The position numbers and the translations under genes are program-made. The notes under the pieces were generated by a model. It saw only the letters and a list, made by a program, of their open reading frames with translations. It ran no database searches and had not been told where the DNA came from. A DNA stretch of 64,000 nt. Source: Arenicola marina. Its lineage: Eukaryota > Annelida > Polychaeta > Arenicolidae. Of the stretch, positions 98-64,000 are shown piece after piece. The DNA lies in assembly GCA_964019135.1 (NCBI GenBank), contig OZ025263.1, positions 32,342,133 through 32,406,132 of the forward strand, read 5' to 3'. Each line of letters starts with the position of its first letter. Position 1 is the first letter of the stretch.

Positions 98-256
98 TGG
101 CGAGTACGACTAGCGCAACCAGCGCCAGCACCACTGCGGAGAGCACCACCAGCTTGACAACCCCAACGACAGTCTCGGAAACCACAAGCACCGGCACCAG
201 TGGGACGACGACAACTCCCACCACTGTCACCCCGACCACCAGTGAGTCCACAACAG
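98..256 (+). CDS. Reference exon (copy 1) of the 53-residue mucin repeat
   Basis: This copy serves as the model unit. The exon begins after CACCATAG (AG at 96-97) and ends at CAACAG before GTCAGT at 257-262. Length is 159 nt, which is 53 codons. The reading frame puts the first two exon bases (TG) as codon positions 2 and 3, completed by the terminal G of the preceding exon, so Val1 spans the junction. Residues in order are a Ser/Ala/Thr segment (2-19), Leu20, TTPTTVSETT (21-30), STGTSG (31-36), four Thr (37-40), PTTVTPTTSESTT (41-53). If read without splicing, the frame meets TGA at 262-264, six bases into the intron, so a continuous product requires splicing. Confidence 0.75.
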
Positions 257-3200
257 GTCAGTGATACAACTTTATCATTTTATGTTTAAAGGAAACGTAT
301 TGTCTAGAATGAAACGGGCGTAAAACAAACTCTAACTTCTTAAACGTCACTTTATAAGTGACATCGGCGATAATATATCGATTCTCAGCAGCTCAAAGTA
401 GGATTGTAAGTCTGTATGCTGATTCTTTTGATAAGCACGTATGGTGCAGCGTTGTATTCTCTTTCCACCATAGTGGCGAGTACGACTAGCGCAACCAGCG
501 CCAGCACCACTGCGGAGAGCACCACCAGCTTGACAACCCCAACGACAGTCTCGGAAACCACAAGCACCGGAACCAGTGGGACGACGACAACCCCGACCAC
601 TGTCACCCCGACCACCAGTGAGTCCACAACAGGTCAGTGATACAACTTTATCATTTTATGTTTAAAGGAAACGTATTGTCTAGAATGAAACGGGCGTAAA
701 ATAAACTCTAACTTCTTAAACATCACTTTATAAGCGACATCGGCGATAATACATCGATTCTCAGCAGCTCAAAGTAGGATTGTAAGTCTGCATGCTGATT
801 CTTTTGATCAACACGTATGGTGCAGCTTTGTTATTCTCTTTCCACCATAGTGGCGAGTACGACTAGCGCAACCAGCGCCAGCACCACTGCGGAGAGCACC
901 ACCAGCTTGACAACCCCAACGACAGTCTCGGAAACCACAAGCACCGGAACCAGTGGGACGACGACAACTCCCACCACTGTCACCCCGACCACCAGTGAGT
1001 CCACAACAGGTCAGTGATACAACTTGGTCATTTTATGTTCAAAGGAAACGTATTGTCTAGAAGGAAACGGGCGTAAAATAAACTCTAATTTCTTAAACGT
1101 CGCTTTATAAGCGACATTGGCGATAATACATCGATTCTCAGCAGCTCAATGTAGGAATGTAAGTCTGTATGCTGATTCTTTTGATAAGCACGTATGGTGC
1201 AGCGTTGTATTCTCTTTCCACCATAGTGGCGAGTACGACTAGCGCAACCAGCGCCAGCACCACTGCGGAGAGCACCACCAGCTTGACAACCCCAACGACA
1301 GTCTCGAAAACCACAAGCACCGGAACCAGTCGGACGACGACAACTCCCACCACTGTCACCCCGACCACCAGTGAGTCCACAACAGGTCAGTGATACAACT
1401 TTATCATTTTATGTTTAAAGGAAACGTATTGTCTAGAAGGAAACCGGCGTAAAACTCTAACTTCTTAAACGTCACTTTATAAGCGACATTGGCGATAATA
1501 TATCGATTCTCAGCAGCTCAATGTAGGAATGTAAGTCTGTATGATGATTCTTTTGATAAGCACGTATGGTGCAGCGTTGTATTCTCTTTTCACCATAGTG
1601 GCGAGTACGACTAGCGCAACCAGCGCCAGCACCACTGCGGAGAGCACCACCAGCTTGACAACCCCAACGACAGTCTCGGAAACCACAAGCACCGGAACCA
1701 GTGGGACGACGACAACTCCCACCACTGTCACCCCGACCAGCAGTGAGTCCACAACAGGTCAGTGATACAACTTTATTATTTTATGTTTGAAAAAAACGTA
1801 TTTTCCAGAAGGAAACGGGCGTAAAATAAACTCTAACTTCTTAAACGTCACTTTCTGAGCGACATCGGCGATAATATATCGATTCTCAGCAGCTCAAAGT
1901 AGGATTGTAAGTCTGTATGCTGATTCTTTTGATAAGCACGTACGGTGCAGCGTGGTATTCTCTTTCCACCATAGCGGCGAGTACGACTAGCGCAACCAGC
2001 GCCAGCACCACTGCGGAGAGCACCACCAGCTTGACAACCCCAACGACAGTCTCGGAAACCACAAGCACCGGAACCAGTGGGACGACGACAACTCCCACCA
2101 CTGTCACCCCGACCACCAGTGAGTCCACAACAGGTCAGTGATACAACTTTATCATTTTATGTTTAAAGGAAACGTATTGTCTAGAATGAAACGGGCGTAA
2201 AATGAACTCTAACTTCTTAAACATCACTTTATAAGCGACATCGGCGATAATATATCGATTCTCAGCAGCTCAAAGTAGGATTGTAAGTCTGTATGCTGAT
2301 TCTTTTGATAAGCACGTATGGTGCAGCGTGGTATTCTCTTTCCACCATAGTGGCGAGTACGACTAGCGCAACCAGCGCCAGCACCACTGCGGAGAGCACC
2401 ACCAGCTTGACAACCCCAACGACAGTCTCGGAAACCACAAGCACCGGAACCAGTGGGACGACGACAACTCCCACCACTGTCACCCCGACCACTAGTGAGT
2501 CCACAACAGGTCAGTGATACAACTTTATCATTTTATGTTCAAAGGAAACGTATTGTCTAGAGGGAAGCGGGCGTAAAACTCTAACTTCTTAAACGTCACA
2601 TTATAAGCGACATTGGCGATAATATATCGATTCTCAGCAGCTCAATGTAGGAATGTAAGTCTGTATGCTGATTCTTTTGATAAGCACGTATGGTGCAGCG
2701 TTGTATTATCTTTCCACCATAGTGGCGAGTACGACTAGCGCAACCAGCGCCAGCACCACTGCGGAGAGCACCACCAGCTTGACAACCCCAACGACAGTCT
2801 CGGAAACCACAAGCACCGGCACCAGTGGGACGACGACAACTCCCACCACTGTCACCCCGACCACCAGTGAGTCCACAACAGGTCAGTGATACAACTTTAT
2901 CATTTTATGTTTAAAGGAAACGTATTGTCTAGAATGAAACGGGCGTAAAACAAACTCTAACTTCTTAAACGTCACTTTATAAGTGACATCGGCGATAATA
3001 TATCGATTCTCAGCAGCTCAAAGTAGGATTGTAAGTCTGTATGCTGATTCTTTTGATAAGCACGTATGGTGCAGCGTTGTATTCTCTTTCCACCATAGTG
3101 GCGAGTACGACTAGCGCAACCAGCGCCAGCACCACTGCGGAGAGCACCACCAGCTTGACAACCCCAACGACAGTCTCGGAAACCACAAGCACCGGAACCA

Positions 3201-4010
3201 GTGGGACGACGACAACCCCGACCACTGTCACCCCGACCACCAGTGAGTCCACAACAGGTCAGTGATACAACTTTATCATTTTATGTTTAAAGGAAACGTA
3301 TTGTCTAGAATGAAACGGGCGTAAAATAAACTCTAACTTCTTAAACATCACTTTATAAGCGACATCGGCGATAATACATCGATTCTCAGCAGCTCAAAGT
3401 AGGATTGTAAGTCTGCATGCTGATTCTTTTGATCAACACGTATGGTGCAGCTTTGTTATTCTCTTTCCACCATAGTGGCGAGTACGACTAGCGCAACCAG
3501 CGCCAGCACCACTGCGGAGAGCACCACCAGCTTGACAACCCCAACGACAGTCTCGGAAACCACAAGCACCGGAACCAGTGGGACGACGACAACTCCCACC
3601 ACTGTCACCCCGACCACCAGTGAGTCCACAACAGGTCAGTGATACAACTTGGTCATTTTATGTTCAAAGGAAACGTATTGTCTAGAAGGAAACGGGCGTA
3701 AAATAAACTCTAATTTCTTAAACGTCGCTTTATAAGCGACATTGGCGATAATACATCGATTCTCAGCAGCTCAAAGTAGGATTGTAAGTCTGTATGCTGA
3801 TTCTTTTGATAAACACGTATGGTGCAGCGTTGTATTCTCTTTCCACCATAGTGGCGAGTACGACTAGCGCAACCAGCGCCACCTCCACTGCGGAGAGCAC
3901 CACCAGCTTGACAACCCCAACGACAGTCTCGGGAACCACAAGCACCGGAACCAGTGGGACGACGACAACTCCCACCACTGTCACTCCGACCACCAGTGAG
4001 TCCACAACAG
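98..4010 (+). CDS. Mucin repeat exons 1-11
   Basis: Exon starts (each exon 159 nt): 98, 474, 851, 1227, 1599, 1975, 2351, 2723, 3099, 3476, 3852. Copies 1-3 recur as copies 8-10 at an offset of 2,625 bp. Copies 3 and 10 share an extra intronic base just before the acceptor (CAGCTTTGTTATTC instead of CAGCGTTGTATTC), which shifts the upstream frame but not the exon. Replacements by repeat residue: exon 4 E28K and G36R; exon 5 T48S; exon 6 V1A; exon 11 S11T, T12S and E28G. Exons 6 and 7 carry the CAGCGTGGTATTC intron variant typical of the left part of the array. Confidence 0.7.
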
Positions 4011-7000
4011 GTCAGTGATACAACTTGATCATTTTATGTTCAAAGGAAACGTATTGTCTAGAAGGAACCGGGCGGAAAATAAACTCTAACTTCTTAAACG
4101 TCGCTTTATAAGCGACATTGGCGATAATATATCGATTCTCAGCAGCTCAAAGTAGGATTGTAAGTCTGTATGCTGATTCTTTTGATAAGCACATATGGTG
4201 CAGCGTGGTATTCTCTTTCCACCATAGTGGCGAGTACGACTAGCGCAACCAGCGCCAGCACCACTGCGGAGAGCACCACCAGCTTGACAACCCCAACGAC
4301 AGTCTCGGAAACCACAAGCACCGGAACCAGTGGGACGACGACAACTCCCACCACTGTCACCCCGACCAGCAGTGAGTCCACAACAGGTCAGTGATACAAC
4401 TTTATTATTTTATGTTTGAAAAAAACGTATTGTCCAGAAGGTAACGGGCGTAAAATAAACTCTAACTTCTTAAACGTCACTTTATAAGCCACATTGGCGA
4501 TAATATATCGATTCTCAGCAGCTCAATGTAGGAATGTAAGTCTGTATGCTGATTCTTTTGATAAGCACGTATGGTGCAGCGTTGTATTATCTTTCCACCA
4601 TAGTGGCGAGTACGACTAGCGCAACCAGCGCCAGCACCACTGCGGAGAGCACCACCAGCTTGACAACCCCAACGACAGTCTCGGAAACCACAAGCACCGG
4701 AACCAGTGGGACGACGACAACTCCCACCACTGTCACTCCGACCACCAGTGAGTCCACAACAGGTCAGTGATACAACTTTATCATTTTATGTTTAAAGGAA
4801 ACGTATTGTCTAGAATGAAACGGGCGTAAAACAAACTCTAACTTCTTAAACGTCACTTTATAAGTGACATCGGCGATAATATATCGATTCTCAGCAGCTC
4901 AAAGTAGGATTGTAAGTCTGTATGCTGATTCTTTTGATAAGCACGTATGGTGCAGCGTTGTATTCTCTTTCCACCATAGTGGCGAGTACGACTAGCGCAA
5001 CCAGCGCCAGCACCACTGCGGAGAGCACCACCAGCTTGACAACCCCAACGTCAGTCTCGGAAACCACAAGCACCGGAACCAGTGGGACGACGACAATTCC
5101 GACCACTGTCACCCCGACCACCAGTGAGTCCACAACAGGTCTGTGATACAACTTTATCATTTTATGTTTAAAGGAAACGTATTGTCTAGAATGAAACGGG
5201 CGTAAAATAAACTCTAACTTCTTAAACATCACTTTATAAGCGACATCGGCGATAACATATCGATTCTCAGCAGCTCAAAGTAGGATTGTAAGTCTGTATG
5301 CTGATTCTTTTGATAAGCACGTATGGTGCAGCGTTGTATTATCTTTCCACCATAGTGGCGAGTACGACTAGCGCAACCAGCGCCAGCACCACTGCGGAGA
5401 GCACCACCAGCTTGACAACCCCAACGACAGTCTCGGAAACCACAAGCACCGGAACCAGTGGGACGACGACAACTCCCACCACTGTCACTCCGACCACCAG
5501 TGAGTCCACAACAGGTCAGTGATAGAACTTGATCATTTGATGTTTAAAGGAAACGTATTGTCTAGAATGAAACGGGCGTAAAACAAACTCTAACTTCTTA
5601 AACGTCACTTTATAAGTGACATCGGCGATAATATATCGATTCTCAGCAGCTCAAAGTAGGATTGTAAGTCTGTATGCTGATTCTTTTGATAAGCACGTAT
5701 GGTGCAGCGTTGTATTCTCTTTCCACCATAGTGGCGAGTACGACTAGCGCAACCAGCGCCAGCACCACTGCGGAGAGCACCACCAGCTTGACAACCCCAA
5801 CGACAGTCTCGGAAACCACAAGCACCGGAACCAGTGGGACGACGACAACCCCGACCACTGTCACCCCGACCACCAGTGAGTCCACAACAGGTCAGTGATA
5901 CAACTTTATCATTTTATGTTTAAAGGAAACGTATTGTCTAGAATGAAACGGGCGTAAAATAAACTCTAACTTCTTAAACATCACTTTATGAGCGACATCG
6001 GCGATAATATATCGATTCTCAGCAGCTCAAAGTAGGATTGTAAGTCTGTATGCTGATTCTTTTGATAAGCACGTATGGTGCAGCGTTGTATTCTCTGTCC
6101 ACCATAGTGGCGAGTACGACTAGCGCAACCAGCGCCAGCACCACTGCGGAGAGCACCACCAGCTTGACAACCCCAACGACAGTCTCGGAAACCACATACA
6201 CCGGAACCAGTGGGACGACGACAACTCCCACCACTGTCACCCCGACCACCAGTGAGTCAACAACAGGTCGGTGATACAACTTGATCATTTTATGTTTAAA
6301 GGAAACGTATTGTCTAGAATGAAACGGGCGTAAAATAAACTCTAACTTCTTAAACATCACTTTATAAGCGACATCGGCGATGATATATCGATTCTCAGCA
6401 GCTCAAAGTAGGATTGTTAGTCTGTATGCTGATTCTTTTGATAAGCACGTATGGTGCAGCGTTGTATTCTCTTTCCACCATAGTGGCGAGTACGACTAGC
6501 GCAACCAGCGCCAGCACCACTGCGGAGAGCACCACCAGCTTGACAACCCCAACGACAGTCTCGGAAACCACAAGCACCGGAACCAGTGGGACGACGACAA
6601 CTCCCACCATTGTCACCCCGACCACCAGTGAGTCCACAACAGGTCAGTGATACAACTTTATCATTTTATGTTTAAAGGAAACGTATTGTCTAGAAGGAAA
6701 CGGGCGTAAAATAAACTCTAACTTCTTAAACGTCACTTTATAAGCGACATTGGCGATAATATATCGATTCTCAGCAGCTCAAAGTAGGATTGTAAGTCTG
6801 TATGCTGATTCTTTTGATAAGCACGTATGGTGCAGCGTTGTATTCTCTTTCCACCATAGTGGCGAGTACGACTAGCGCCACCAGCGCCAGCACCACTGCG
6901 GAGAGCACCACCAGCTTGACAACCCCAACGACAGTCTCGAAAACCACAAGCACCGGAACCAGTCGGACGACGACAACTCCCACCACTGTCACCCCGACCA

Positions 7001-10000
7001 CCAGTGAGTCCACAACAGGTCAGTGATACAACTTTATCATTTTATGTTTAAAGGAAACGTATTGTCTAGAAGGAAACCGGCGTAAAACTCTAACTTCTTA
7101 AACGTCACTTTATAAGCGACATTGGCGATAATATATCGATTCTCAGCAGCTCAATGTAGGAATGTAAGTCTGTATGCTGATTCTTTTGATAAGCACGTAT
7201 GGTGCAGCGTTGTATTCTCTTTTCACCATAGTGGCGAGTACGACTAGCGCAACCAGCGCCAGCACCACTGCGGAGAGCACCACCAGCTTGACAACCCCAA
7301 CGACAGTCTCGGAAACCACAAGCACCGGAACCAGTGGGACGACGACAACTCCCACCACTGTCACTCCGACCACCAGTGAGTCCACAACAGGTCAGTGATA
7401 CAACTTTATCATTTTATGTTTAAAGGAAACGTATTGTCTAGAAGGAAACGGGCGTAAAACAAACTCTAACTTCTTAAACGTCACTTTCTGAGCGACATCG
7501 GCGATAATATATCGATTCTCAGCAGCTCAAAGTAGGATTGTAAGTCTGTATGCTGATTCTTTTGATAAGCACATATGGTGCAGCGTGGTATTCTCTTTCC
7601 ACCATAGTGGCGAGTACGACTAGCGCAACCAGCGCCAGCACCACTGCGGAGAGCACCACCAGCTTGACAACCCCAACGACAGTCTCGGAAACCACAAGCA
7701 CCGGAACCAGTGGGACGACGACAACTCCCACCACTGTCACCCCGACCACCAGTGAGTCCACAACAGGTCAGTGATACAACTTTATTATTTTATGTTTGAA
7801 AAAAACGTATTTTCCAGAAGGAAACGGGCGTAAAATAAACTCTAACTTCTTAAACGTCACTTTCTGAGCGACATCGGCGATAATATATCGATTCTCAGCA
7901 GCTCAAAGTAGGATTGTAAGTCTGTATGCTGATTCTTTTGATAAGCACGTACGGTGCAGCGTGGTATTCTCTTTCCATCATAGTGGCGAGTACGACTAGC
8001 GCAACCAGCGCCAGCACCACTGCGGAGAGCACCACCAGCTTGACAACCCCAACGACAGTCTCGGAAACCACAAGCACCGGAACCATTGGGACGACGACAA
8101 CTCCCACTACTGTCACCCCGACCACTAGTGAGTCGACAACAGGTCAGTGATACAACTTGATCATTTAATGTTCAAAGGAAACGTGTTGTCTAGAGGGAAG
8201 CGGGCGTAAAACTCTAACTTCTTAAACGTCACTTTATAAGCGACATTGGCGATAATATATCGATTCTCAGCAGCTCAATGTAGGAATGTAAGTCTGTATG
8301 CTGATTCTTTTGATAAGCACGTATGGTGCAGCGTTGTATTCTCTTTCCACCATAGTGGCGAGTACGACTAGCGCAACCAGCGCCAGCACCACTGCGGAGA
8401 GCACCACCAGCTTGACAACCCCAACGACAGTCTCGGAAACCACAAGCACCGGAACCAGTGGGACGACGACAACTCCCACCACTGTCACTCCGACCACCAG
8501 TGAGTCCACAACAGGTCAGTGATACAACTTTATCATTTTATGTTTAAAGGAAACGTATTGTCTAGAAGGAAACGGGCGTAAAACAAACTCTAACTTCTTA
8601 AACGTCACTTTCTGAGCGACATCGGCGATAATATATCGATTCTCAGCAGCTCAAAGTAGGATTGTAAGTCTGTATGCTGATTCTTTTGATAAGCACATAT
8701 GGTGCAGCGTGGTATTCTCTTTCCACCATAGTGGCGAGTACGACTAGCGCAACCAGCGCCAGCACCACTGCGGAGAGCACCACCAGCTTGACAACCCCAA
8801 CGACAGTCTCCGAAACCACAAGCACCGGAACCAGTGGGACGACGACAACTCCCACCACTGTCACCCCGACCAGCAGTGAGTCCACAACAGGTCAGTGATA
8901 CAACTTTATTATTTTATGTTTGAAAAAAACGTATTTTCCAGAAGGAAACGGGCGTAAAATGAACTCTAACTTCTTAAACGTCACTTTCTGAGCGACATCG
9001 GCGATAATATATCGATTCTCAGCAGCTCAAAGTAGGATTGTAAGTCTGTATGCTGATTCTTTTGATAAGCACGTACGGTGCAGCGTGGTATTCTCTTTCC
9101 ACCATAGTGGCGAGTACGACTAGCGCAACCAGCGCCAGCACCACTGCGGAGAGCACCACCAGCTTGACAACCCCAACGACAGTCTCGGAAACCACAAGCA
9201 CCGGAACCAGTGGGACGACGACAACTCCCACCACTGTCACCCCGACCACTAGTGAGTCGACAACAGGTCAGTGATACAACTTGATCATTTAATGTTCAAA
9301 GGAAACGTATTGTCTAGAGGGAAGCGGGCGTAAAACTCTAACTTCTTAAACGTCACTTTATAAGCGACATTGGCGATAATATATCGATTCTCAGCAGCTC
9401 AATGTAGGAATGTAAGTCTGTATGCTGATTCTTTTGATAAGCACGTATGGTGCAGCGTTGTATTATCTTTCCACCATAGTGGCGAGTACGACTAGCGCAA
9501 CCAGCGCCAGCACCACTGCGGAGAGCACCACCAGCTTGACAACCCCAACGACAGTCTCGGAAACCACAAGCACCGGAACCAGTGGGACGACGACAACTCC
9601 CACCACTGTCACCCCGACCACTAGTGAGTCGACAACAGGTCAGTGATACAACTTGATCATTTAATGTTCAAAGGAAACGTATTGTCTAGAGGGAAGCGGG
9701 CGTAAAACTCTAACTTCTTAAACGTCACTTTATAAGCGACATTGGCGATAATATATCGATTCTCAGCAGCTCAATGTAGGAATGTAAGTCTGTATGCTGA
9801 TTCTTTTGATAAGCACGTATGGTGCAGCGTTGTATTATCTTTCCACCATAGTGGCGAGTACGACTAGCGCAACCAGCGCCAGCACCACTGCGGAGAGCAC
9901 CACCAGCTTGACAACCCCAACGACAGTCTCGGAAACCACAAGCACCGGAACCAGTGGGACGACGACAACTCCCACCACTGTCACCCCGACCACCAGTGAG

Positions 10001-52000: not shown

Positions 52001-55000
52001 CACCACTGTCACCCCGACCACCAGTGAGTCAACAACAGGTCAGTGATACAACTTTATCATTTTATGTTTAAAGGAAACGTATTTTCTAGAAGGAAACGGG
52101 CGTATAACTCTAACTTCTTAAACGTCACTTCATAATCGACATTGGCGATAATATATCGATTCTCAGCAGCTCAATGCAGGAATGTAAGTCTGTATGGTGA
52201 TTCTTTTGATAAGCACGTATGGTGCAGCGTTGTATTCGCTTTCCACCATAGTGGCGAGTACGACTAGCGCAACCAGCGCCAGCACCACTGCGGAGAGCAC
52301 CACCAGCTTGACAACCCCAACGACAGTCTCGGAAACCACAAGCACCGGAACCAGGGGGACAACGACAACTCCCACCACTGTCACCCCGACCACCAGTGAG
52401 TCCACAACAGGTCAGTGATACAACTTTATCATTTTATGTTTAAAGGAAACGTATTGTCTAGAATGAAACGGGCGTAAAACAAACACTAACTTCTTAAACG
52501 TCACTTTATAAGCGACATCGGCGATAATATATCGATTCTCAGCAGCTCAAAGTAGGATTGTAAGTCTGTATGGTAATTCTTTTGATAAGCACGTATGGTG
52601 CAGCGTTGTATTCTCTTTCCACCATAGTGGCGAGTACGACTAGCGCAACCAGCGCCAGCACCACTGCGGAGAGCACCACCAGCTTGACAACCCCAACGAC
52701 AGTCTCGGAAGCCTCAAGCACCGGAAACAGTGGGACGACGACAATTCCCACCACTGTCACTTCGACCACCAGTGAGTCCACAACAGGTCAGTGATAGAAC
52801 TTTATCATTTGATGTTTAAAGGAAACGTATTGTCTAGAAGGAAACGGGCGTAAAATAAACTCTAACTTCTTAAACGTCACTTTATGAGCGACATCGGCGA
52901 TAATATATCGATTCTCAGCAGCTCAAAGTAGGATTGTAAGTCTGTGTGCTGATTCTTTTGATAAGCACGTATGGTGCAGCGTTGTATTCTCTTTCCATCA
53001 TAGTGGCGAGTACGACTAGCGCAACCAGCGCCAGCACCACTGCGGAGAGCACCACCAGCTTGACAACCCCAACGACAGTCTCGGAAACCACAAGCACCGG
53101 AACCAGTGGGACGACGACAACTCCCACCACTGTCACCCCGACCACCAGTGAGTCCACAACAGGTCAGTGATAAAACTTTATCATTTTATGTTTAAAGGAA
53201 ACGTATTGTCTAGAATGAAACGGGCGTAAAATAAACTCTAACTTCTTAAACATCACTTTATAACCGACATCGGCGATAATATATCGATTCTCAGCAGCTC
53301 AAAGTAGGATTGTAAGTCTGTATGCTGATTCTTTTGATAAGCACGTATGGTGCAGCGTTGTATTCTCTTTCCACCATAGTGGCGAGTACGACTAGCGCAA
53401 CCAGCGCCAGCACCACTGCGGAGAGCACCACCAGCTTGACAACCCCAACGACAGTCTCGGAAACCACAAGCACCGGAACCAGTGGCACGACGACAACTCC
53501 CACCACTGTCACCCCGACCACCAGTGAGTCCACAACAGGTCAGTGATACAACTTTATCATTTTATGTTTAAAGGAAACGTATTGTCTAGAATGAAACGGG
53601 CGTAAAACAAACTCCAACTTCTTAAACGTCACTTTATAAGCGACATCGGCGATAATATATCGATTCTCAGCAGCTCAAAGTAGGATTGTAAGTCTGTATG
53701 GTGATTCTTTTGATAAGCACGTATGGTGCAGCGTTGTATTCTCTTTCCACCATAGTGGCGAGTACGACTAGCCCAACCAGCGCCAGCACCACTGCGGAGA
53801 GCACCACCAGCTTGACAACCCCAACGACAGTCTCGGAAACCACAAGCACCGGAACCAGTGGGACGACGACAACTCCCACCACTGTCACCCCGACCACCAG
53901 TGAGTCCACAACAGGTCAGTGATACAACTTTATCATTTTATGTTTAAAGGAAACGTATTGTCTAGAATGAAACGGGCGTAAAATAAACTCTAACTTCTTA
54001 AACGTCACTTTATGAGCGACATCGGCGATAATATATCGATTCTCAGCAGCTCAAAGTAGGAATGTAAGTCTGTATGCTGATTCTTTTGATAAGCACGTAT
54101 GGTGCAGCGTTGTATTATCTTTCCACCATAGTGGCGAGTACGACTAGCGCAACCAGCGCCAGCACCACTGCGGAGAGCACCACCAGCTTGACAACCCCAA
54201 CGACAGTCTCGGAAACCACAAGCACCGGAACCAGTGGGACGACGACAACTCCCACCACTGTCACCCCGACCACCAGTGAGTCCACAACAGGTCAGTGATA
54301 CAACTTTATCATTTTATGTTTAAAGGAAACGTATTGTCTAGAATGAAACGGGCGTAAAATAAACTCTAACTTCTTAAACATCACTTTATAAGCGACATCG
54401 GCGATAATATATCGATTCTCAGCAGCTCAAAGTAGGATTGTAAGTCTGTATGCTGATTCTGTTGATAAGCACGTATGGTGCAGCGTTGTATTCTCTTTCC
54501 ACCATAGTGGCGAGTACGACTAGCGCAACCAGCGCCAGCACCACTGCGGAGAGCACCACCAGCTTGACAACCCCAACGACAGTCTCGGAAACCACAAGCA
54601 CCGGAACCAGTGGGACGACGACAACTCCCACCACTGTCACCCCGACCACCAGTGAGTCCACAACAGGTCAGTGATACAACTTTATCATTTTATGTTTAAA
54701 GGAAACGAATTGTCTAGAATGAAACGGGCGTAAAACAAACTCCAACTTCTTAAACGTCACTTTATAAGCGACATCGGCGATAATATATCGATTCTCAGCA
54801 GCTCAAAGTAGGATTGTAAGTCTGTATGCTGATTCTGTTGATAAGCACGTATGGTGCAGCGTTGTATTCTCTTTCCACCATAGTGGCGAGTACGACTAGC
54901 GCAACCAGCGCCAGCACCACTGCGGAGAGCACCACCAGCTTGACAACCCCAACGACAGTCTCGGAAACCACAAGCACCGGAACCAGTGGGACGACGACAA

Positions 55001-58000
55001 CTCCCACCACTGTCACCCCGACCACCAGTGAGTCCACAACAGGTCAGTGATACAACTTTATCATTTTATGTTTAAAGGAAACGTATTGTCTAGAATGAAA
55101 CGGGCGTAAAACAAACTCCAACTTCTTAAACGTCACTTTATAAGCGACATCGGCGATAATATATCGATTCTCAGCAGCTCAAAGTAGGATTGTAAGTCTG
55201 TATGGTGATTCTTTTCATAAGCACGTATGGTGCAGCGTTGTATTCTCTTTCCACCATAGTGGCGAGTACGACTAGCGCAACCAGCGCCAGCACCACTGCG
55301 GAGAGCACCACCAGCTTGACAACCCCAACGACAGTCTCGGAAACCACAAGCACCGGAACCAGTGGGACGACGACAACTCCCACCACTGTCACCCCGACCA
55401 CCAGTGAGTCAACAACAGGTCAGTGATACAACTTTATCGGTTTATGTTTAAAGGAAACGTATTGTCTAGAATGAAACGGGCGTAAAACAAACTCCAACTT
55501 CTTAAACGTCACTTTATAAGCGACATCGGCGATAATATATCGATTCTCAGCAGCTCAAAGTAGGATTGTAAGTCTGTATGGTGATTCTTTTGATAAGCAC
55601 GTATGGTGCAGCGTTGTATTCTCTTTCCACCATAGTGGCGAGTACGACTAGCCCAACCAGCGCCAGCACCACTGCGGAGAGCACCACCAGCTTGACAACC
55701 CCAACGACAGTCTCGGAAACCACAAGCACCGGAACCAGTGGGACGACGACAACTCCCACCACTGTCACCCCGACCACCAGTGAGTCCACAACAGGTCAGT
55801 GATACAACTTTATCATTTTATGTTTAAAGGAAACGTATTGTCTAGAATGAAACGGGCGTAAAATAAACTCTAACTTCTTAAACGTCACTTTATGAGCGAC
55901 ATCGGCGATAATATATCGATTCTCAGCAGCTCAAAGTAGGAATGTAAGTCTGTATGCTGATTCTTTTGATAAGCACGTATGGTGCAGCGTTGTATTATCT
56001 TTCCACCATAGTGGCGAGTACGACTAGCGCAACCAGCGCCAGCACCACTGCGGAGAGCACCACCAGCTTGACAACCCCAACGACAGTCTCGGAAACCACA
56101 AGCACCGGAACCAGTGGGACGACGACAACTCCCACCACTGTCACCCCGACCACCAGTGAGTCCACAACAGGTCAGTGATAAAACTTTATCATTTTATGTT
56201 TAAAGGAAACGTATTGTCTAGAATGAAACGGGCGTAAAATAAACTCTAACTTCTTAAACATCACTTTATAAGCGACATCGGCGATAATATATCGATTCTC
56301 AGCAGCTCAAAGTAGGATTGTAAGTCTGTATGCTGATTCTGTTGATAAGCACGTATGGTGCAGCGTTGTATTCTCTTTCCACCATAGTGGCGAGTACGAC
56401 TAGCGCAACCAGCGCCAGCACCACTGCGGAGAGCACCACCAGCTTGACAACCCCAACGACAGTCTCGGAAACCACAAGCACCGGAACCAGTGGGACGACG
56501 ACAACTCCCACCACTGTCACCCCGACCACCAGTGAGTCCACAACAGGTCAGTGATACAACTTTATCATTTTATGTTTAAAGGAAACGTATTGTCTAGAAT
56601 GAAACGGGCGTAAAACAAACTCCAACTTCTTAAACGTCACTTTATAAGCGACATCGGCGATAATATATCGATTCTCAGCAGCTCAAAGTAGGATTGTAAG
56701 TCTGTATGGTGATTCTTTTGATAAGCACGTATGGTGCAGCGTTGTATTCTCTTTCCACCATAGTGGCGAGTACGACTAGCCCAACCAGCGCCAGCACCAC
56801 TGCGGAGAGCACCACCAGCTTGACAACCCCAACGACAGTCTCGGAAACCACAAGCACCGGAACCAGTGGGACGACGACAACTCCCACCACTGTCACCCCG
56901 ACCACCAGTGAGTCCACAACAGGTCAGTGATACAACTTTATCATTTTATGTTTAAAGGAAACGTATTGTCTAGAATGAAACGGGCGTAAAATAAACTCTA
57001 ACTTCTTAAACGTCACTTTATGAGCGACATCGGCGATAATATATCGATTCTCAGCAGCTCAATGCAGGAATGGAAGTCTGTATGCTGATTCTTTTGATAA
57101 GCACGTATGGTGCAGCGTTGTATTATCTTTCCACCATAGTGGCGAGTACGACTAGCGCAACCAGCGCCAGCACCACTGCGGAGAGCACCACCAGCTTGAC
57201 AACCCCAACGACAGTCTCGGAAACCACAAGCACCGGAACCAGTGGGACGACGACAACTCCCACCACTGTCACCCCGACCACCAGTGAGTCCACAACAGGT
57301 CAGTGATAAAACTTTATCATTTTATGTTTAAAGGAAACGTATTGTCTAGAATGAAACGGGCGTAAAATAAACTCTAACTTCTTAAACATCACTTTATAAG
57401 CGACATCGGCGATAATATATCGATTCTCAGCAGCTCAAAGTAGGATTGTAAGTCTGTATGCTGATTCTGTTGATAAGCACGTATGGTGCAGCGTTGTATT
57501 CTCTTTCCACCATAGTGGCGAGTACGACTAGCGCAACCAGCGCCAGCACCACTGCGGAGAGCACCACCAGCTTGACAACCCCAACGACAGTCTCGGAAAC
57601 CACAAGCACCGGAACCAGTGGGACGACGACAACTCCCACCACTGTCACCCCGACCACCAGTGAGTCCACAACAGGTCAGTGATACAACTTTATCATTTTA
57701 TGTTTAAAGGAAACGTATTGTCTAGAATGAAACGGGCGTAAAACAAACTCCAACTTCTTAAACGTCACTTTATAAGCGACATCGGCGATAATATATCGAT
57801 TCTCAGCAGCTCAAAGTAGGATTGTAAGTCTGTATGGTGATTCTTTTGATAAGCACGTATGGTGCAGCGTTGTATTCTCTTTCCACCATAGTGGCGAGTA
57901 CGACTAGCGCAACCAGCGCCAGCACCACTGCGGAGAGCACCACCAGCTTGACAACCCCAACGACAGTCTCGGAAACCACAAGCACCGGAACCAGTGGGAC

Positions 58001-61000
58001 GACGACAACTCCCACCACTGTCACCCCGACCACCAGTGAGTCCACAACAGGTCAGTGATACAACTTTATCATTTTATGTTTAAAGGAAACGTATTGTCTA
58101 GAATGAAACGGGCGTAAAACAAACTCCAACTTCTTAAACGTCACTTTATAAGCGACATCGGCGATAATATATCGATTCTCAGCAGCTCAAAGTAGGATTG
58201 TAAGTCTGTATGGTGATTCTTTTCATAAGCACGTATGGTGCAGCGTTGTATTCTCTTTCCACCATAGTGGCGAGTACGACTAGCGCAACCAGCGCCAGCA
58301 CCACTGCGGAGAGCACCACCAGCTTGACAACCCCAACGACAGTCTCGGAAACCACAAGCACCGGAACCAGTGGGACGACGACAACTCCCACCACTGTCAC
58401 CCCGACCACCAGTGAGTCAACAACAGGTCAGTGATACAACTTTATCGGTTTATGTTTAAAGGAAACGTATTGTCTAGAATGAAACGGGCGTAAAACAAAC
58501 TCCAACTTCTTAAACGTCACTTTATAAGCGACATCGGCGATAATATATCGATTCTCAGCAGCTCAAAGTAGGATTGTAAGTCTGTATGGTGATTCTTTTG
58601 ATAAGCACGTATGGTGCAGCGTTGTATTCTCTTTCCACCATAGTGGCGAGTACGACTAGCCCAACCAGCGCCAGCACCACTGCGGAGAGCACCACCAGCT
58701 TGACAACCCCAACGACAGTCTCGGAAACCACAAGCACCGGAACCAGTGGGACGACGACAACTCCCACCACTGTCACCCCGACCACCAGTGAGTCCACAAC
58801 AGGTCAGTGATACAACTTTATCATTTTATGTTTAAAGGAAACGTATTGTCTAGAATGAAACGGGCGTAAAATAAACTCTAACTTCTTAAACGTCACTTTA
58901 TGAGCGACATCGGCGATAATATATCGATTCTCAGCAGCTCAAAGTAGGAATGTAAGTCTGTATGCTGATTCTTTTGATAAGCACGTATGGTGCAGCGTTG
59001 TATTATCTTTCCACCATAGTGGCGAGTACGACTAGCGCAACCAGCGCCAGCACCACTGCGGAGAGCACCAACAGCTTGACAACCCCAACGACAGTCTCGG
59101 AAACCACAAGCACCGGAACCAGTGGGACGACGACAACTCCCACCACTGTCACCCCGACCACCAGTGAGTCCACAACAGGTCAGTGATAAAACTTTATCAT
59201 TTTATGTTTAAAGGAAACGTATTGTCTAGAATGAAACGGGCGTAAAATAAACTCTAACTTCTTAAACATCACTTTATAAGCGACATCGGCGATAATATAT
59301 CGATTCTCAGCAGCTCAAAGTAGGATTGTAAGTCTGTATGCTGATTCTGTTGATAAGCACGTATGGTGCAGCGTTGTATTCTCTTTCCACCATAGTGGCG
59401 AGTACGACTAGCGCAACCAGCGCCAGCACCACTGCGGAGAGCACCACCAGCTTGACAACCCCAACGACAGTCTCGGAAACCACAAGCACCGGAACCAGTG
59501 GGACGACGACAACTCCCACCACTGTCACCCCGACCACCAGTGAGTCCACAACAGGTCAGTGATACAACTTTATCATTTTATGTTTAAAGGAAACGTATTG
59601 TCTAGAATGAAACGGGCGTAAAACAAACTCCAACTTCTTAAACGTCACTTTATAAGCGACATCGGCGATAATATATCGATTCTCAGCAGCTCAAAGTAGG
59701 ATTGTAAGTCTGTATGGTGATTCTTTTGATAAGCACGTATGGTGCAGCGTTGTATTCTCTTTCCACCATAGTGGCGAGTACGACTAGCCCAACCAGCGCC
59801 AGCACCACTGCGGAGAGCACCACCAGCTTGACAACCCCAACGACAGTCTCGGAAACCACAAGCACCGGAACCAGTGGGACGACGACAACTCCCACCACTG
59901 TCACCCCGACCACCAGTGAGTCCACAACAGGTCAGTGATACAACTTTATCATTTTATGTTTAAAGGAAACGTATTGTCTAGAATGAAACGGGCGTAAAAT
60001 AAACTCTAACTTCTTAAACGTCACTTTATGAGCGACATCGGCGATAATATATCGATTCTCAGCAGCTCAATGCAGGAATGGAAGTCTGTATGCTGATTCT
60101 TTTGATAAGCACGTATGGTGCAGCGTTGTATTATCTTTCCACCATAGTGGCGAGTACGACTAGCGCAACCAGCGCCAGCACCACTGCGGAGAGCACCACC
60201 AGCTTGACAACCCCAACGACAGTCTCGGAAACCACAAGCACCGGAACCAGTGGGACGACGACAACTCCCACCACTGTCACCCCGACCACCAGTGAGTCCA
60301 CAACAGGTCAGTGATAAAACTTTATCATTTTATGTTTAAAGGAAACGTATTGTCTAGAATGAAACGGGCGTAAAATAAACTCTAACTTCTTAAACATCAC
60401 TTTATAAGCGACATCGGCGATAATATATCGATTCTCAGCAGCTCAAAGTAGGATTGTAAGTCTGTATGCTGATTCTGTTGATAAGCACGTATGGTGCAGC
60501 GTTGTATTCTCTTTCCACCATAGTGGCGAGTACGACTAGCGCAACCAGCGCCAGCACCACTGCGGAGAGCACAACCAGCTTGACAACCCCAACGACAGTC
60601 TCGGAAACCACAAGCACCGGAACCAGTGGCACGACGACAACTCCCACCACTGTCACCCCGACCACCAGTGAGTCCACAACAGGTCAGTGATACAACTTTA
60701 TCATTTTATGTTTAAAGGAAACGTATTGTCTAGAATGAAACGGGCGTAAAACAAACTCCAACTTCTTAAACGTCACTTTATAAGCGACATCGGCGATAAT
60801 ATATCGATTCTCAGCAGCTCAAAGTAGGATTGTAAGTCTGTATGGTGATTCTTTTCATAAGCACGTATGGTGCAGCGTTGTATTCTCTTTCCACCATAGT
60901 GGCGAGTACGACTAGCGCAACCAGCGCCAGCACCACTGCGGAGAGCACCACCAGCTTGACAACCCCAACGACAGTCTCGGAAACCACAAGCACCGGAACC

Positions 61001-64000
61001 AGTGGGACGACGACAACTCCCACCACTGTCACCCCGACCACCAGTGAGTCAACAACAGGTCAGTGATACAACTTTATCGGTTTATGTTTAAAGGAAACGT
61101 ATTTTCTAGAAGGAAACGGGCGTAAAACTCTAACTTCTTAAACGTCACTTTATAAGCGACATTGGCGATAATATATCGATTCTCAGCAGCTCAATGCAGG
61201 AATGGAAGTCTGTATGGTAATTCTTTTGATAAGCACGTATGGTGCAGCGTTGTATTCTCTTTCCACCATAGTGGCGAGTACGACTAGCGCAACCAGCGCC
61301 AGCACCACTGCGGAGAGCACCACCAGCTTGACAACCCCAACGACAGTCTCGGAAACCACAAGCACCGGAACCAGTGGCACGACGACAACTCCCACCACTG
61401 TCACCCCGACCACCAGTGAGTCCACAACAGGTCAGTGATACAACTTTATCATTTTATGTTTAAAGGAAACGTATTGTCTAGAATGAAACGGGCGTAAAAT
61501 AAACTCTAACTTCTTAAACGTCACTTTATAAGCGACATCGGCGATAATATATCGATTCTCAGCAGCTCAAAGTAGGATTGTAAGTCTGTATGGTAATTCT
61601 TTTGATAAGCACGTATGGTGCAGCGTTGTATTCTCTTTCCACCATAGTGGCGAGTACGACTAGCGCAACCAGCGCCAGCACCACTGCGGAGAGCACCACC
61701 AGCTTGACAACCCCAACGACAGTCTCGGAAACCACAAGCACCGGAACCAGTGGGACGACGACAACTCCCACCACTGTCACCCCGACCACCAGTGAGTCCA
61801 CAACAGGTCAGTGATAAAACTTTATCATTTTATTTTTAAAGGAAACGTATTGTCTAGAATGAAACGGGCGTAAAATAAACTCTAACTTCTTAAACGTCAC
61901 TTTATAAGCGACATCGGCGATAATATATCGATTCTCAGCAGCTCAAAGTAGGATTGTAAGTCTGTATGGTGATTCTTTTGATAAGCACGTATGGTGCAGC
62001 GTTGTATTCTCTTTCCACCATAGTGGCGAGTACGACTAGCGCAACCAGCGCCAGCACCACTGCGGAGAGCACCACCAGCTTGACAACTCCAACGACAGTC
62101 TCGGAAACCACAAGCACCGGAACCAGTGGGACGACGACAACTCCCACCACTGTCACTCCGACCACCAGTGAGTCCACAACAGGTCAGTGATACAACTTTA
62201 TCATTTTATGTTTAAAGGAAACGTATTGTCTAGAAGGAAACGGGCGTAAAACTCTAACTTCTTAAACGTCACTTTATAAGCGACATCGGCGATAATATAT
62301 CGATTCTCAGCAGCTCAAAGTAGGATTGTAAGTCTGTATGCTGATTCTTTTGATAAGCACGTATGGTGCAGCGTTGTATTCTCTTTCCACCATAGTGGCG
62401 AGTACGACTAGCGCAACCAGCGCCAGCACCACTGCGGAGAGCACCACCAGCTTGACAACCCCAACGACAGTCTCGGAAACCACAAGCACCGGGACCAGTG
62501 GGACGACGACAACTCCCACCACTGTCACTCCGACCACCAGTGAGTCCACAACAGGTCAGTGATACAACTTTATCATTTTATGTTTAAAGGAAACGTATTG
62601 TCTAGAAGGAAACGGGCGTAGAACAAACTCTAACTTCTTAAACGTCACTTTATAAGCGACATCAGCGATAATATATCGATTCTCAGCAGCTCAAAGTAGG
62701 ATTGTAAGTCTGTATGCTGATTCTTTTGATAAGCACGTATGGTGCAGCGTTGTATTCTCTTTCCACCGTAGTGGCGAGTACGACTAGCGCAACCAGCGCC
62801 AGCACCACTGCGGAGAGCACCACCAGCTTGACAACCCCAACGACAGTCTCGGAAACCACAAGCACCGGAACCAGTGGGACGACGACAACTCCCACCACTG
62901 TCACTCCGACCACCAGTGAGTCCACAACAGGTCAGTGATACAACTTTATCATTTTATGTGTAAAGGAAACGTATTGTCTAGAAGGAAACGGGCGTAGAAC
63001 AAACTGTAACTTCTTAAACGTCACTTTATAAGCGACATCAGCGATAATATATCGATTCTCAGCAGCTCAAAGTAGGATTGTAAGTCTGTATGCTGATTCT
63101 TTTGATAAGCACGTATGGCGCAGCGTTGTATTCTCTTTCCACCATAGTGGCGAGTACGACTAGCGCAACCAGCGCCAGCACCACTGCGGAGAGCACCACC
63201 AGCTTGACAACCCCAACGACAGTCTCGGAAACCACAAGCACCGGAACCAGTGGGACGACGACAACTCCCACCACTGTCACCCCGACCACCAGTGAGTCAA
63301 CAACAGGTCAGTGATACAACTTTATCATTTTACGTTTAAAGGAAACGTATTGTCTAGAAGGAAACGGGCGTAAAATAAACTCTAACTTCTTAAACGTCAC
63401 TTTATGAGCGACATCGGCGATAATATATCGATTCTCAGCAGCTCAAAGTAGGATTGTAAGTCTGTATGCTGATTCTTTTGATAAGCACGTATGGTGCAGC
63501 GTTGTATTCTCTTTCCACCATAGTGGCGAGTACGACTAGCGCAACCAGCGCCAGCACCACTGCGGAGAGCACCACCAGCTTGACAACCCCAACGACAGTC
63601 TCGGAAACCACAAGCACCGGAACCAGTGGGACGACGGCAACTCCCACCACTGTCACCCCGACCACCAGTGAGTCCACAACAGGTCAGTGATTAAACTTTA
63701 TCATTTTATGTTTAAAGGAAACGTATTGTCTAGAATGAAACGGGCGTAAAATAAACTCTAACTTCTTAAACATCACTTTATAAGCGACATCGGCGATAAT
63801 ATATCGATTCTCAGCAGCTCAAAGTAGGATTGTAAGTCTGTATGCTGATTCTGTTGATAAGCACGTATGGTGGAGCGTTGTATTCTCTTTCCACCATAGT
63901 GGCGAGTACGACTAGCGCAACCAGCGCCAGCACCACTGCGGAGAGCACCACCAGCTTGACAACCCCAACGACAGTCTCGGAAACCACAAGCACCGGAACC
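98..64000 (+). CDS. Internal part of a giant mucin-like (Thr/Ser/Pro-rich) gene built of 53-codon exons
   Basis: Inferred product: a very large, extended, heavily O-glycosylated secreted or surface mucin-like protein. Seen: 170 complete 159-nt exons plus one partial, each in the same reading frame and all stop-free, joined by introns of about 213-218 nt. The spliced repeat is 53 residues starting VASTTSATSAS and ending TPTTSESTT; about 70% is Thr or Ser. It has three Pro and three Glu, and no Cys, aromatic, Lys, Arg or Asn in the consensus. Every exon is phase 1-1, so G|TG rebuilds Val at each junction. Complete exons alone encode 9,010 residues. No signal peptide, terminal domain, first or last exon is in the window, so family assignment rests on composition only. 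Alternatives are many short intron-retaining peptides or a non-coding satellite carrying an inherited open frame; I judge both less likely. Confidence 0.72.
239..247 (+). other. Possible alternative in-phase donor 15 nt upstream (CCA|GTGAGT)
   Basis: GTGAGT is a full match to donor positions +1 to +6, though the last exon bases (CCA) are weaker than CAG. Use of this site would end the exon at 241 instead of 256, giving 144 nt (48 codons) and still phase 1. The junction codon would then be ATG instead of GTG and SESTT would be skipped. The site recurs in nearly all units; exceptions are GTCAGT in copy 48 and GTGGGT in copy 56. Confidence 0.35.
254..262 (+). other. Splice donor CAG|GTCAGT (reference copy)
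   Basis: CAG|GTCAGT matches the metazoan donor consensus at every position except +3. GT is retained in all 170 complete units: the codon over the junction is always GGT, TGT or AGT. Rare variants are GTCTGT at 5139, GTCGGT at 6267 and 33648, GTCAGC at 44527, T at the last exon base at 21635 and 41898, and A at the last exon base at 23139. Confidence 0.72.
346..362 (+). other. Intronic 7-bp inverted repeat with 3-base loop
   Basis: GTCACTT-TAT-AAGTGAC is a perfect inverted repeat in this copy. The corresponding place at 1099-1115 reads GTCGCTT-TAT-AAGCGAC, also perfect. The majority form, GTCACTT...AAGCGAC, has one mismatch, which on the opposite strand would be a G-U wobble. Other copies break the stem, for example TTTATGAGCGAC. 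It could be a weak intronic hairpin; no role is known. Confidence 0.4.
368..380 (+). other. Intronic inverted repeat CGATA-ATA-TATCG
   Basis: A five-base perfect inverted repeat with a three-base spacer, present in most units, immediately upstream of the ATTCTCAGCAG segment. It is short enough that no function should be assumed. Confidence 0.35.
419..423 (+). other. Candidate branch-point CTGAT, 51 nt before the acceptor
   Basis: CTGAT fits the loose animal branch-point pattern CTRAY and lies 51 nt upstream of the AG at 472-473. In many later copies the same place reads GTGAT or GTAAT. A textbook CTAAC sits at 332-336 but about 138 nt upstream, which is unusually far. Neither can be chosen from sequence alone, and AGs lie between this CTGAT and the acceptor. 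Confidence 0.25.
4228..7018 (+). CDS. Mucin repeat exons 12-19
   Basis: Exon starts: 4228, 4604, 4980, 5356, 5732, 6108, 6484, 6860. Replacements: exon 12 T48S; exon 14 T25S and T40I; exon 17 S31Y, a rare aromatic residue; exon 18 T43I; exon 19 E28K and G36R. Exon 19 shares its two changes with exon 4, and exons 4-7 align with 19-22 at an offset of 5,633 bp (15 units). Exons 14 and 17 have altered donors (GTCTGT and GTCGGT), both keeping GT. Confidence 0.7.
7100..9370 (+). repeat. 3-unit tandem duplication, 1,124-bp period
   Basis: Exons 20-22 and 23-25 with introns repeat in the same order, including the GAGGGAAGCGGGCG intron after the third member. Exon 22 has S35I and exon 25 does not. 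Limits are approximate. Confidence 0.7.
7232..10010 (+). CDS. Mucin repeat exons 20-27
   Basis: Exon starts: 7232, 7608, 7984, 8356, 8732, 9108, 9480, 9852. Copies 20-22 are repeated as 23-25 at an offset of 1,124 bp (two 376-bp steps and one 372-bp step). Exons 21, 22, 24 and 25 carry the CAGCGTGGTATTC intron variant. Replacements: exon 22 S35I, exon 24 T48S. Introns after exons 22, 25 and 26 share TTGATCATTTAATG and GAGGGAAGCGGGCG, marking a subfamily not seen past about 11.2 kb. Confidence 0.7.
10228..12253 (+). CDS. Mucin repeat exons 28-33
   Basis: Exon starts: 10228, 10600, 10975, 11347, 11723, 12095. Exons 28 and 29 recur as 32 and 33 at an offset of 1,495 bp (4 units). Exons 28 and 32 share G33E. 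Exon 31 has T45S. The intron after exon 29 has lost one base (TTTAAAGAAACG near 10,790), giving a 375-bp step. Exon 30 is the first copy whose upstream intron has TATGGTAATTC in place of TATGCTGATTC. Confidence 0.7.
12471..15256 (+). CDS. Mucin repeat exons 34-41
   Basis: Exon starts: 12471, 12847, 13223, 13595, 13971, 14347, 14723, 15098. Replacements: exon 35 T45N, exon 38 S3R, exons 39 and 41 T47I. Exons 39 and 41 form a near two-unit repeat. The intron before exon 41 has lost one base in a T-run near 15,050 (GATTTTTTGAT), again without effect on the exon. Exons 34 and 36 share the silent change CAACTCCAACG and belong to one subfamily. Confidence 0.7.
15474..22763 (+). CDS. Mucin repeat exons 42-61
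   Basis: Exon starts: 15474, 15847, 16223, 16599, 16975, 17351, 17724, 18100, 18476, 18852, 19225, 19601, 19977, 20353, 20729, 21101, 21477, 21853, 22229, 22605. Exons 42-44 recur as 51-53 at an offset of 3,378 bp (9 units), and 44-46 as 58-60 at 5,254 bp (14 units). Signatures: T30S with P46S in exons 44, 53 and 58; P23S in 46, 54 and 60; E50Q in 48; P46S in 55; T32S and E50G in 56; T39K in 58, which also has T as its last exon base; A10T and E15G in 61. Confidence 0.7.
22981..30639 (+). CDS. Mucin repeat exons 62-82
   Basis: Exon starts: 22981, 23357, 23733, 24105, 24477, 24853, 25229, 25605, 25981, 26357, 26729, 27101, 27477, 27853, 28229, 28605, 28981, 29353, 29729, 30105, 30481. Copies 65-67 recur as 72-74 and 69-71 as 76-78, both at an offset of 2,624 bp (7 units); 74-75 recur as 80-81 at 2,252 bp. 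Exon 79 is a hybrid of copies like 72 and 73. Replacements: exon 62 S27P, exon 68 T39A and T45P, exons 75 and 81 T30S and P46S. Exon 62 ends in A, not G, before its donor. Confidence 0.7.
24000..28900 (+). repeat. 7-unit higher-order duplication, 2,624-bp period
   Basis: Exons 65-67 and 69-71 correspond to 72-74 and 76-78. Exons 68 and 75 differ in type, so this block was edited after duplication or assembled from two events. Shared markers are GCAGGAATGGAAG, silent GGGACC, CACCGTAG, CTGTTGATAAG and ATGATGCAGCG. Confidence 0.7.
30857..36267 (+). CDS. Mucin repeat exons 83-97
   Basis: Exon starts: 30857, 31233, 31609, 31985, 32361, 32737, 33113, 33489, 33861, 34237, 34613, 34989, 35365, 35737, 36109. 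Exons 87-91 recur as 92-96 at an offset of 1,876 bp (5 units), with shared markers S27P (88, 93), TATTCTGATTC in the intron before 90 and 95, and GCAGGAATGGAAG before 91 and 96. Exon 90 has a GTCGGT donor. The introns before exons 86, 90 and 95 have lost the ATG of the unspliced frame, while the exon is unaffected. Confidence 0.7.
32152..35900 (+). repeat. 5-unit tandem duplication, 1,876-bp period
   Basis: Exons 87-91 with their introns repeat as 92-96 in the same order of variant units. Differences seen are CTCTTACTTC against CTCTAACTTC near 33,345/35,221 and a GTCGGT donor at 33648 against GTCAGT. Limits are approximate. Confidence 0.8.
36440..39800 (+). repeat. 5-unit tandem duplication, 1,880-bp period
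   Basis: Exons 98-101 and 103-106 correspond, including shared intronic GTAGAACAAACTGTAAC, GGGTGTAAAATAAAC and CACTTGATGAGCG. Exon 102 separates them. Limits are approximate. Confidence 0.75.
36485..41147 (+). CDS. Mucin repeat exons 98-110
   Basis: Exon starts: 36485, 36861, 37237, 37613, 37989, 38365, 38741, 39117, 39493, 39869, 40241, 40613, 40989. Exons 98-101 recur as 103-106 at an offset of 1,880 bp (5 units). Shared markers are T45P (99, 104), TGATTCTGTTGAT in the intron before 100 and 105, and ATGATGCAACG before 101 and 106. Exon 106 differs from 101 by T13P, produced by CACACCTG in place of CACCACTG near 39,530. Exon 108 has T42I and exon 110 has E28G. Confidence 0.7.
41365..50910 (+). 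CDS. Mucin repeat exons 111-136
   Basis: Exon starts: 41365, 41740, 42112, 42488, 42864, 43240, 43616, 43992, 44368, 44744, 45120, 45496, 45872, 46248, 46620, 46996, 47372, 47748, 48124, 48500, 48876, 49252, 49628, 50004, 50380, 50752. Exons 115-125 recur in order as 126-136 at an offset of 4,132 bp. Paired markers: A10T and E15G in 119 and 130; S27P in 120 and 131; T39A in 125 and 136. Others: exon 111 T30P and T42I; exon 112 S6T and T as last base before the donor. After exon 119 the intron reads GTCAGCGATAA. Confidence 0.7.
42657..51007 (+). repeat. 11-unit, 4,132-bp tandem duplication, nearly identical
   Basis: Bases 42657-46875 match 46789-51007 at an offset of 4,132 bp. By eye I found only two differences inside: 44532 against 48664 (C/T) and 46098 against 50230 (T/A). 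The outer limits are the first mismatches on each side, at 42656/46788 and 46876/51008. Eleven successive units keep the same order of diagnostic variants. This is the most recent large duplication I could recognise. Confidence 0.9.
51128..53538 (+). CDS. Mucin repeat exons 137-143
   Basis: Exon starts: 51128, 51504, 51880, 52252, 52628, 53004, 53380. Exon 140 has S35R, a rare basic residue. Exon 141 is the most diverged copy I noticed, with T29A, T30S, T34N, T40I and P46S; it is an older relative of exons 44, 53, 58, 75 and 81. The Asn at 34 is followed by Ser-Gly, so it is not an N-glycosylation sequon. Introns before exons 137-139 share the TGATTCTGTTGAT marker. Confidence 0.7.
53756..61058 (+). 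CDS. Mucin repeat exons 144-163
   Basis: Exon starts: 53756, 54132, 54508, 54884, 55260, 55636, 56012, 56388, 56764, 57140, 57516, 57892, 58268, 58644, 59020, 59396, 59772, 60148, 60524, 60900. A7P marks exons 144, 149, 152, 157 and 160 and reveals the higher-order order of the block. Exons 149-154 recur as 157-162 at an offset of 3,008 bp (8 units), and 163 corresponds to 156. The second copy lacks the equivalent of exon 155. Exon 158 has T18N, not in a sequon. Three-unit repeats (149-151 and 152-154) lie inside the larger block. Confidence 0.7.
55560..61080 (+). repeat. 8-unit higher-order block (3,008 bp) repeated once, second copy missing one unit
   Basis: Units with exons 149-156 and 157-163 follow the same order of markers: A7P, TATTATC before the acceptor, TGATTCTGTTGAT, A7P, GCAGGAATGGAAG, TGATTCTGTTGAT and TTTTCATAAGC. 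Unit 155 has no counterpart in the second copy. The paired TTTATCGGTTTATG introns near 58,440 and 61,075 mark the block ends. Confidence 0.75.
61272..64000 (+). CDS. Mucin repeat exons 164-171, the last cut by the window end
   Basis: Exon starts: 61272, 61648, 62024, 62396, 62772, 63148, 63524, 63900. Exon 171 is incomplete because the window ends at 64000, 101 bases into it. Exons 167-169 resemble the 66-68 and 73-74 group: silent GGGACC in 167, CACCGTAG acceptor for 168, and GGCGCAGCG in the intron before 169. Exon 170 has T39A, as in 125 and 136. The array continues beyond the window. Confidence 0.7.

Follow-up and report, generated by a model that had tools for sequence, protein, structure and literature searches.

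Among the closest described systems is the chicken mucin gene Muc13, whose PTS domain is encoded with one exon per near-identical repeat (at least 12 repeats of 20 residues, with an assembly gap), and whose authors proposed that recombination or regulated splicing varies the length of the repeat domain (Lang et al. 2006, PMC1552070). In SmPoMuc of Schistosoma mansoni, exon 2 and introns are repeated up to 20 times (PMC2576457), and in Argiope MaSp2 the repetitive exons are accompanied by near-identical introns (mean similarity of 97.6% within a gene), which were suggested by the authors to help homogenise the coding repeats (PMC9779670). The PEVK region of titin contains over 100 short repetitive exons that encode a low-complexity stretch and are subject to alternative splicing (PMC6469411), and a 2026 preprint states that all mucins carry a large tandem-repeat exon (PMC13345508). 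These descriptions, and the comparisons built on them below, extend as far as the excerpts of the sources on which we draw.

Here we analysed a single stretch of 64,000 nt of genomic DNA (hereafter the window), which consists of a 376-bp tandem repeat that we read as the interior of one very large gene with one exon and one intron per unit. Chicken Muc13 shares with the array, read in this manner, the arrangement of one exon per repeat; it differs in being a transmembrane mucin with a SEA domain and at least 12 repeats of 20 residues, compared with at least 170 repeats of 53 residues here, where flanking domains would lie outside the window. SmPoMuc has homogenised exon-intron tandem repeats as this array would on the same reading (PMC2576457), but its units are of about 1 kb, number at most 20 per gene and are separated by microsatellites, whereas the units here are of 376 bp and number at least 170. 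Argiope MaSp2 and the flagelliform spidroin genes likewise share with the array repetitive exons and near-identical introns (PMC9779670). Spidroins are, however, rich in Ala, Gly, Pro and Gln while the repeat of the array is rich in Thr and Ser, and in the silk genes cited by PMC2576457 homogenisation has gone further in introns than in exons, whereas in the array it is the candidate exons that are less variable. Titin PEVK has many short repetitive exons in common with the array and differs in its Pro/Glu/Val/Lys composition. The PEVK exons are, moreover, not known to form an array in which copies and introns alike are nearly identical.

The published counts for comparison are at least 12 (Muc13), at most 20 (SmPoMuc) and over 100 exons (titin PEVK). 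Against the precedents of chicken Muc13, SmPoMuc and Argiope MaSp2, the remark of an earlier note on this DNA that it knew of no described system exactly like this one does not hold for the architecture: its principle is already known, and the new part would be its scale combined with such uniformity. Among the matches listed, by titles and the starts of abstracts, in the open-licence PMC literature we found no mucin-like array this large with one exon per repeat. If the array is transcribed and spliced as read, it would to our knowledge be among the longest runs of near-identical exons known.

The array and its 159-nt segment

Tandem Repeats Finder describes the whole window (1-64000) as a single row with a period of 376, 170.5 copies and 96% matches. 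The array reaches both window ends and no other sequence is present in the 64 kb. Cutting it into units at the acceptor CTTTCCACCATAG yielded 171 sites and 170 complete units, and the tandem array of 170 complete copies announced in the earlier note is confirmed. The features referred to in the text are the following.

1 to 64000, plus strand: uninterrupted tandem array with a period of 376 bp and 170 complete acceptor-to-acceptor units (Tandem Repeats Finder).
98 to 256, plus strand: first complete candidate exon; 159 nt with both ends in phase 1, giving 53 codons once joined (AG before, GT after, open frame).
257 to 473, plus strand: first complete candidate intron, 217 nt, with donor CAG|GTCAGT at its start and acceptor TTTCCACCATAG at its end (weight-matrix scores).
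474 to 632, plus strand: second complete candidate exon.
63524 to 63682, plus strand: last complete candidate exon.
63900 to 64000, plus strand: 171st candidate exon, partial, truncated by the window end (171st acceptor site).

The length of the 170 units is 376 nt in 135 of them, 372 nt in 27, 375 nt in three, 373 nt in three and 377 nt in two. Because every segment has 159 nt, all of these differences fall outside it, and the candidate introns vary between 213 and 218 nt rather than having the constant 217 nt assumed previously. Among the 170 whole units 128 different sequences occur, which on the assembled sequence argues against the assembler having copied one unit. The unit has a CpG ratio of 1.03, which would argue against an origin in a vertebrate genome with heavy methylation, and its anatomy suggests that the DNA is eukaryotic. 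The GC content is 0.61 in the candidate exon and 0.37 in the candidate intron.

All 170 segments are 159 nt long, are preceded by AG and are followed by GT. When they are concatenated in register, 27,030 nt and 9,010 codons result with 0 stops in the stated frame, and thus it is correct that all copies are open and equal in length; each of the five remaining frames has stops, namely 171, 344, 348, 31 and 1. The last exon base is T or A in three copies, which are still open in the joined count. The frame with a single stop in 27,030 nt is antisense and valine-rich. This near-openness probably follows from the codons used for Thr and Ser, and openness is therefore partly a matter of composition. 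With G entered throughout as the first base of the junction, the 53-residue peptide VASTTSATSASTTAESTTSLTTPTTVSETTSTGTSGTTTTPTTVTPTTSESTT is identical in 114 of the 170 segments and 34 peptide forms exist overall.

The consensus repeat contains 49% Thr, 21% Ser and only 6% Pro. When a mucin is taken as a protein with a long tandem-repeat domain rich in Pro, Thr and Ser, with no cut-off on composition, the 170 repeats correspond to such a domain with low Pro. The label mucin would accordingly be one of composition alone, as the array fills the window and other mucin domains would lie outside the view. Disorder is to be expected in a low-complexity repeat of this kind. Searches of Pfam with three joined repeats returned only an irrelevant match below threshold (TseB, E 0.93), Rfam gave no match for positions 1-8000, and exact matches were absent both for a 38-base pattern in a collection of viral contigs and for a 27-base pattern in a second collection, of genome contigs, the two together covering viruses, bacteria and archaea.

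Putative splice signals and tests of constraint on the reading frame

Splice sites were scored on the 376-nt consensus unit with weight matrices that approximate those of metazoan sites. On this strand the consensus unit offers 22 GT and 25 AG candidate sites, and the best of each kind lies at a border of the segment: the top-scoring donor is its 3' border, CAG|GTCAGT (4.6, runner-up 2.96), and the top-scoring acceptor its 5' border, GTATTCTCTTTCCACCATAG (5.57, runner-up 3.41). The minus strand reaches 1.29 for donors and 2.7 for acceptors, and in 3000 shuffles equally good sites appeared at 0.11 donors and 0.05 acceptors per shuffled unit. The donor has the consensus score in 162 of the 170 units and a score of 3.3 or less in the remaining eight. 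Its position +3 is C, which is a rare base at that position. Both borders, as candidate sites recognised by consensus match alone, are in phase 1, and the putative splice sites flanking each repeat would thus preserve the reading frame. A possible microexon of 17 nt within the unit, noted by eye between TTCTCAG and GTAAGT, was rejected because its length would shift the frame and GTAAGT is found in just 154 of 170 units.

The candidate introns of the array are near-identical as well as the candidate exons, and variation differs between the two. Per site, mean pairwise diversity amounts to 0.0135 for the segment, compared with 0.042 for the rest of the unit (Mann-Whitney P 0.0006), 56 of the 159 segment sites are variable compared with 105 of the 217 others (Fisher P 0.012), and the six distinct indel events all affect the 217 nt outside and none the 159-nt segment (conditional P 0.037; Poisson P 0.012). 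Counting distinct variants, the exon has 61 in 159 nt and the 150-nt spacer 94 (P 0.003), which corresponds to 0.38 per site in the exon and 0.75 in the spacer with an intermediate 0.52 in the 58 nt upstream of the exon. Comparison of the exon with these 58 nt, which hold an ATG and 30 distinct variants, gave P 0.19, so that no significant step in variability falls at the acceptor itself. All these P values are rough because the copies are related by duplication. Within the segment, the first 60 nt carry 15 distinct variants, fewer than expected from their length, and the last 99 nt carry 46 (P 0.035).

Tests for protein-level constraint gave mixed results. The piN/piS of the exon segment is 0.30, whereas pN/pS by distinct variants (41 non-synonymous and 20 synonymous) is 0.86 and not different from 1 (P 0.58). 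The low piN/piS thus rests on a few common synonymous variants whose copies were perhaps multiplied by block duplication: variants present in five or more copies comprise six synonymous and four that are not, compared with 14 and 37 among the rarer ones (Fisher P 0.066). Diversity at third codon positions is 2.7 times that of the other positions (permutation of means, P 0.015), the ratio elsewhere being 1.24 to 1.67 in the best frame of 59 overlapping 159-nt windows outside the exon, but a rank test detected no third-position effect in the exon (P 0.60). The openness of all 170 copies, to which the earlier note points, is real, yet by itself it is weak evidence, for the chance of zero stops without selection is 0.42 to 0.58, and we rejected it as proof of selection. 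When frameshifts are included, no ORF-breaking event is seen in the exon where 3.9 would be expected at spacer rates (P 0.02), a comparison whose frameshift rate rests on just three spacer events.

The main reason for preferring exons is that the best splice sites of the unit coincide with the ends of the constrained frame. Of the explanations weighed, this reading appears to us the best supported by the sequence, and we assign a probability of about 0.66 to the array lying inside a single, very large eukaryotic gene that encodes a mucin-like (PTS-type) protein rich in Thr and Ser, with an exon and an intron per unit. Each 376-bp unit would then consist of one 159-nt exon and one intron of about 217 nt; the whole array would be transcribed as one unit, each intron would be spliced out, and translation would produce a run of at least 9,010 residues, the Thr and Ser of which would be densely O-glycosylated in a product secreted or displayed at the surface. 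Because every exon starts and ends in phase 1, the adding, deleting or skipping of exons would keep the frame, and unequal DNA exchange, seen in the block duplications described below, possibly with exon skipping, could lengthen or shorten the domain and leave it intact. More tentatively, and at odds that we regard as unfavourable, the transcription unit could exceed 64 kb and comprise over 170 interchangeable phase-symmetric exons, with the length of the protein set by germ-line exchange and by the number of exons included in splicing, in such a way that molecules may differ in length.

If the array is transcribed and spliced as read, it would lend itself to testing how sites that are all identical come to be paired in the right order by the spliceosome. 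It would likewise permit a test of random exon skipping by the spliceosome, and one of the homogenisation of exon-intron repeats in which the exon is kept more constant than the intron.

Alternative explanations of the array

The exon-per-repeat reading put forward in the earlier note draws support from the site scores, the phase, the absence of indels and the lower diversity of the segment. What it overlooked is that the frame continues beyond both borders, to an ATG upstream and a TGA downstream, and it consequently missed the following rival.

40 to 264, plus strand: alternative ATG-to-TGA ORF of 74 aa with the hydrophobic start MLILLISTYGAALY, first unit shown (ORF list of 1-1600).

Under this alternative, which we judge unlikely, the window would be an array of about 160 or more intronless small genes, each encoding a 74-residue secreted peptide made of a hydrophobic start of about 20 residues, a 53-residue Thr/Ser-rich part and then Gly-Gln-stop, the remainder of the unit being 3' and 5' untranslated sequence and processing signals (with a promoter for each gene or as a trans-spliced polycistron). 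The upstream frame runs for 57 nt without a stop (ATG CTG ATT CTT TTG ATA AGC ACG TAT GGT GCA GCG TTG TAT TCT CTT TCC ACC ATA, then GTG GCG AGT) and its downstream end reads ACA ACA GGT CAG TGA. An in-frame ATG is found 57 nt upstream at 163 of the 171 acceptor sites and only at -33 at two more, six being without any, and the frame stops at TGA in 169 of 170 complete copies, the remaining one reaching TAA one codon later. Stop-ended ORFs from an ATG at -57 or -69 are present at 162 of the 171 sites (148 of 74 aa, 13 of 78 and one of 75); at the other sites there are two shorter ORFs (66 aa), six positions with no in-frame ATG and one ORF cut by the window end. The occurrence of a 74-aa ORF from ATG to TGA in the same frame at 148 of 171 sites speaks against exons, whose model must call it a coincidence. 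It also points to a hazard for annotation, since one frame admits two readings, as an exon and as a small gene complete in itself.

The start of the ORF looks, by eye, hydrophobic in the manner of a signal peptide, and the upstream part resembles coding sequence a little. In its 57 nt the coding frame shows the lowest pN/pS, both by distinct variants (0.68 against 1.89 and 0.98) and by copies (0.86 against 2.43 and 2.08), substitutions to stop number 0 against 1.1 expected, third positions are the most variable (0.79 per site against 0.30 and 0.47), and by distinct variants the variability of the stretch does not significantly exceed that of the exon (the P of 0.19 given above). The pyrimidine-rich end of an intron tends, nevertheless, to be translated as Leu, Ile, Phe and Ser anyway. 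At 1.48, the upstream excess of third-position diversity stays inside the range of the spacer placebo, whose 95th percentile is 1.71, and ORF-breaking events upstream number four against the 4.1 expected without selection, in contrast to none against 3.9 in the exon. These breaks are two start losses (in one and four copies) and two frameshifts (in one and two copies); that all four fall upstream has a chance of 0.07, so that exons are favoured only modestly. The small genes would in addition make the presence of the unit's best donor at the end of the ORF a matter of chance, and a 376-bp unit would leave them about 150 nt for all their signals, among which the polyadenylation signal AATAAA is not fixed (71 of 170 units) and TATAAG is found in 132 of 170.

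Within the noncoding part variation is lowest in 27 nt, GCGATAATATATCGATTCTCAGCAGCT, that lie upstream of the ATG, as small genes might have it, but the block is not significant after scanning (P 0.125), and a conserved promoter-like or trans-splice-acceptor block at this place was rejected on that ground. It occupies consensus columns 269-295 (exon start = 0) and so precedes the acceptor by about 80 to 107 nt. Another part of the unit, an A-rich spot at consensus columns of about 225-234 on the same scale, is variable: 71 of the 170 units read AATAAA, 58 read AACAAA and 30 have a deletion of 3-4 nt. Relatives of the 74-residue ORF were sought in viral contigs, where 206 pattern matches were obtained and tblastn confirmed 0, and the ORF had no match to NCBIfam or to PDB sequences.

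The more improbable of the two rivals to the exon array supposes a satellite that grew from an exon-intron unit (or a small gene) of a mucin-like gene and is now unexpressed, its open frames being inherited and its homogenisation so recent that lesions had no time to accumulate. Such a view accommodates the uniformity of the array with no other sequence in 64 kb, the chance of 0.42 to 0.58 for zero stops, the pN/pS by distinct variants that does not depart from 1, and the block duplications described below. A freely evolving satellite fails, however, to explain why the 159-nt segment has a lower diversity and fewer indels and distinct variants than the remainder of the unit, unless mutation rates vary with composition (the GC content being 0.61 in the one and 0.37 in the other). 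Unspliced read-through of the array as a giant protein was rejected since the longest open stretch in the six genomic frames has 127 codons.

Turnover of the units can be followed in the array itself. An array-wide higher-order repeat of fixed period was rejected, the mean differences between units being flat with lag (11.1 to 12.7 at the lags reported, of 1 to 119). Defining a block-duplication run as three or more near-identical units, with at most two differences each, at a fixed lag, we found 17 runs. These include units 114-124 at lag 11 (four differences in 11 units), units 147-153 at lag 8 (one difference in seven units), units 86-90 at lag 5 (two differences in five units) and units 62-67 at lag 31 (seven differences in six units). 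Unequal exchange would be the natural cause of such duplications, the clearest of which comprise 5, 8 and 11 units.
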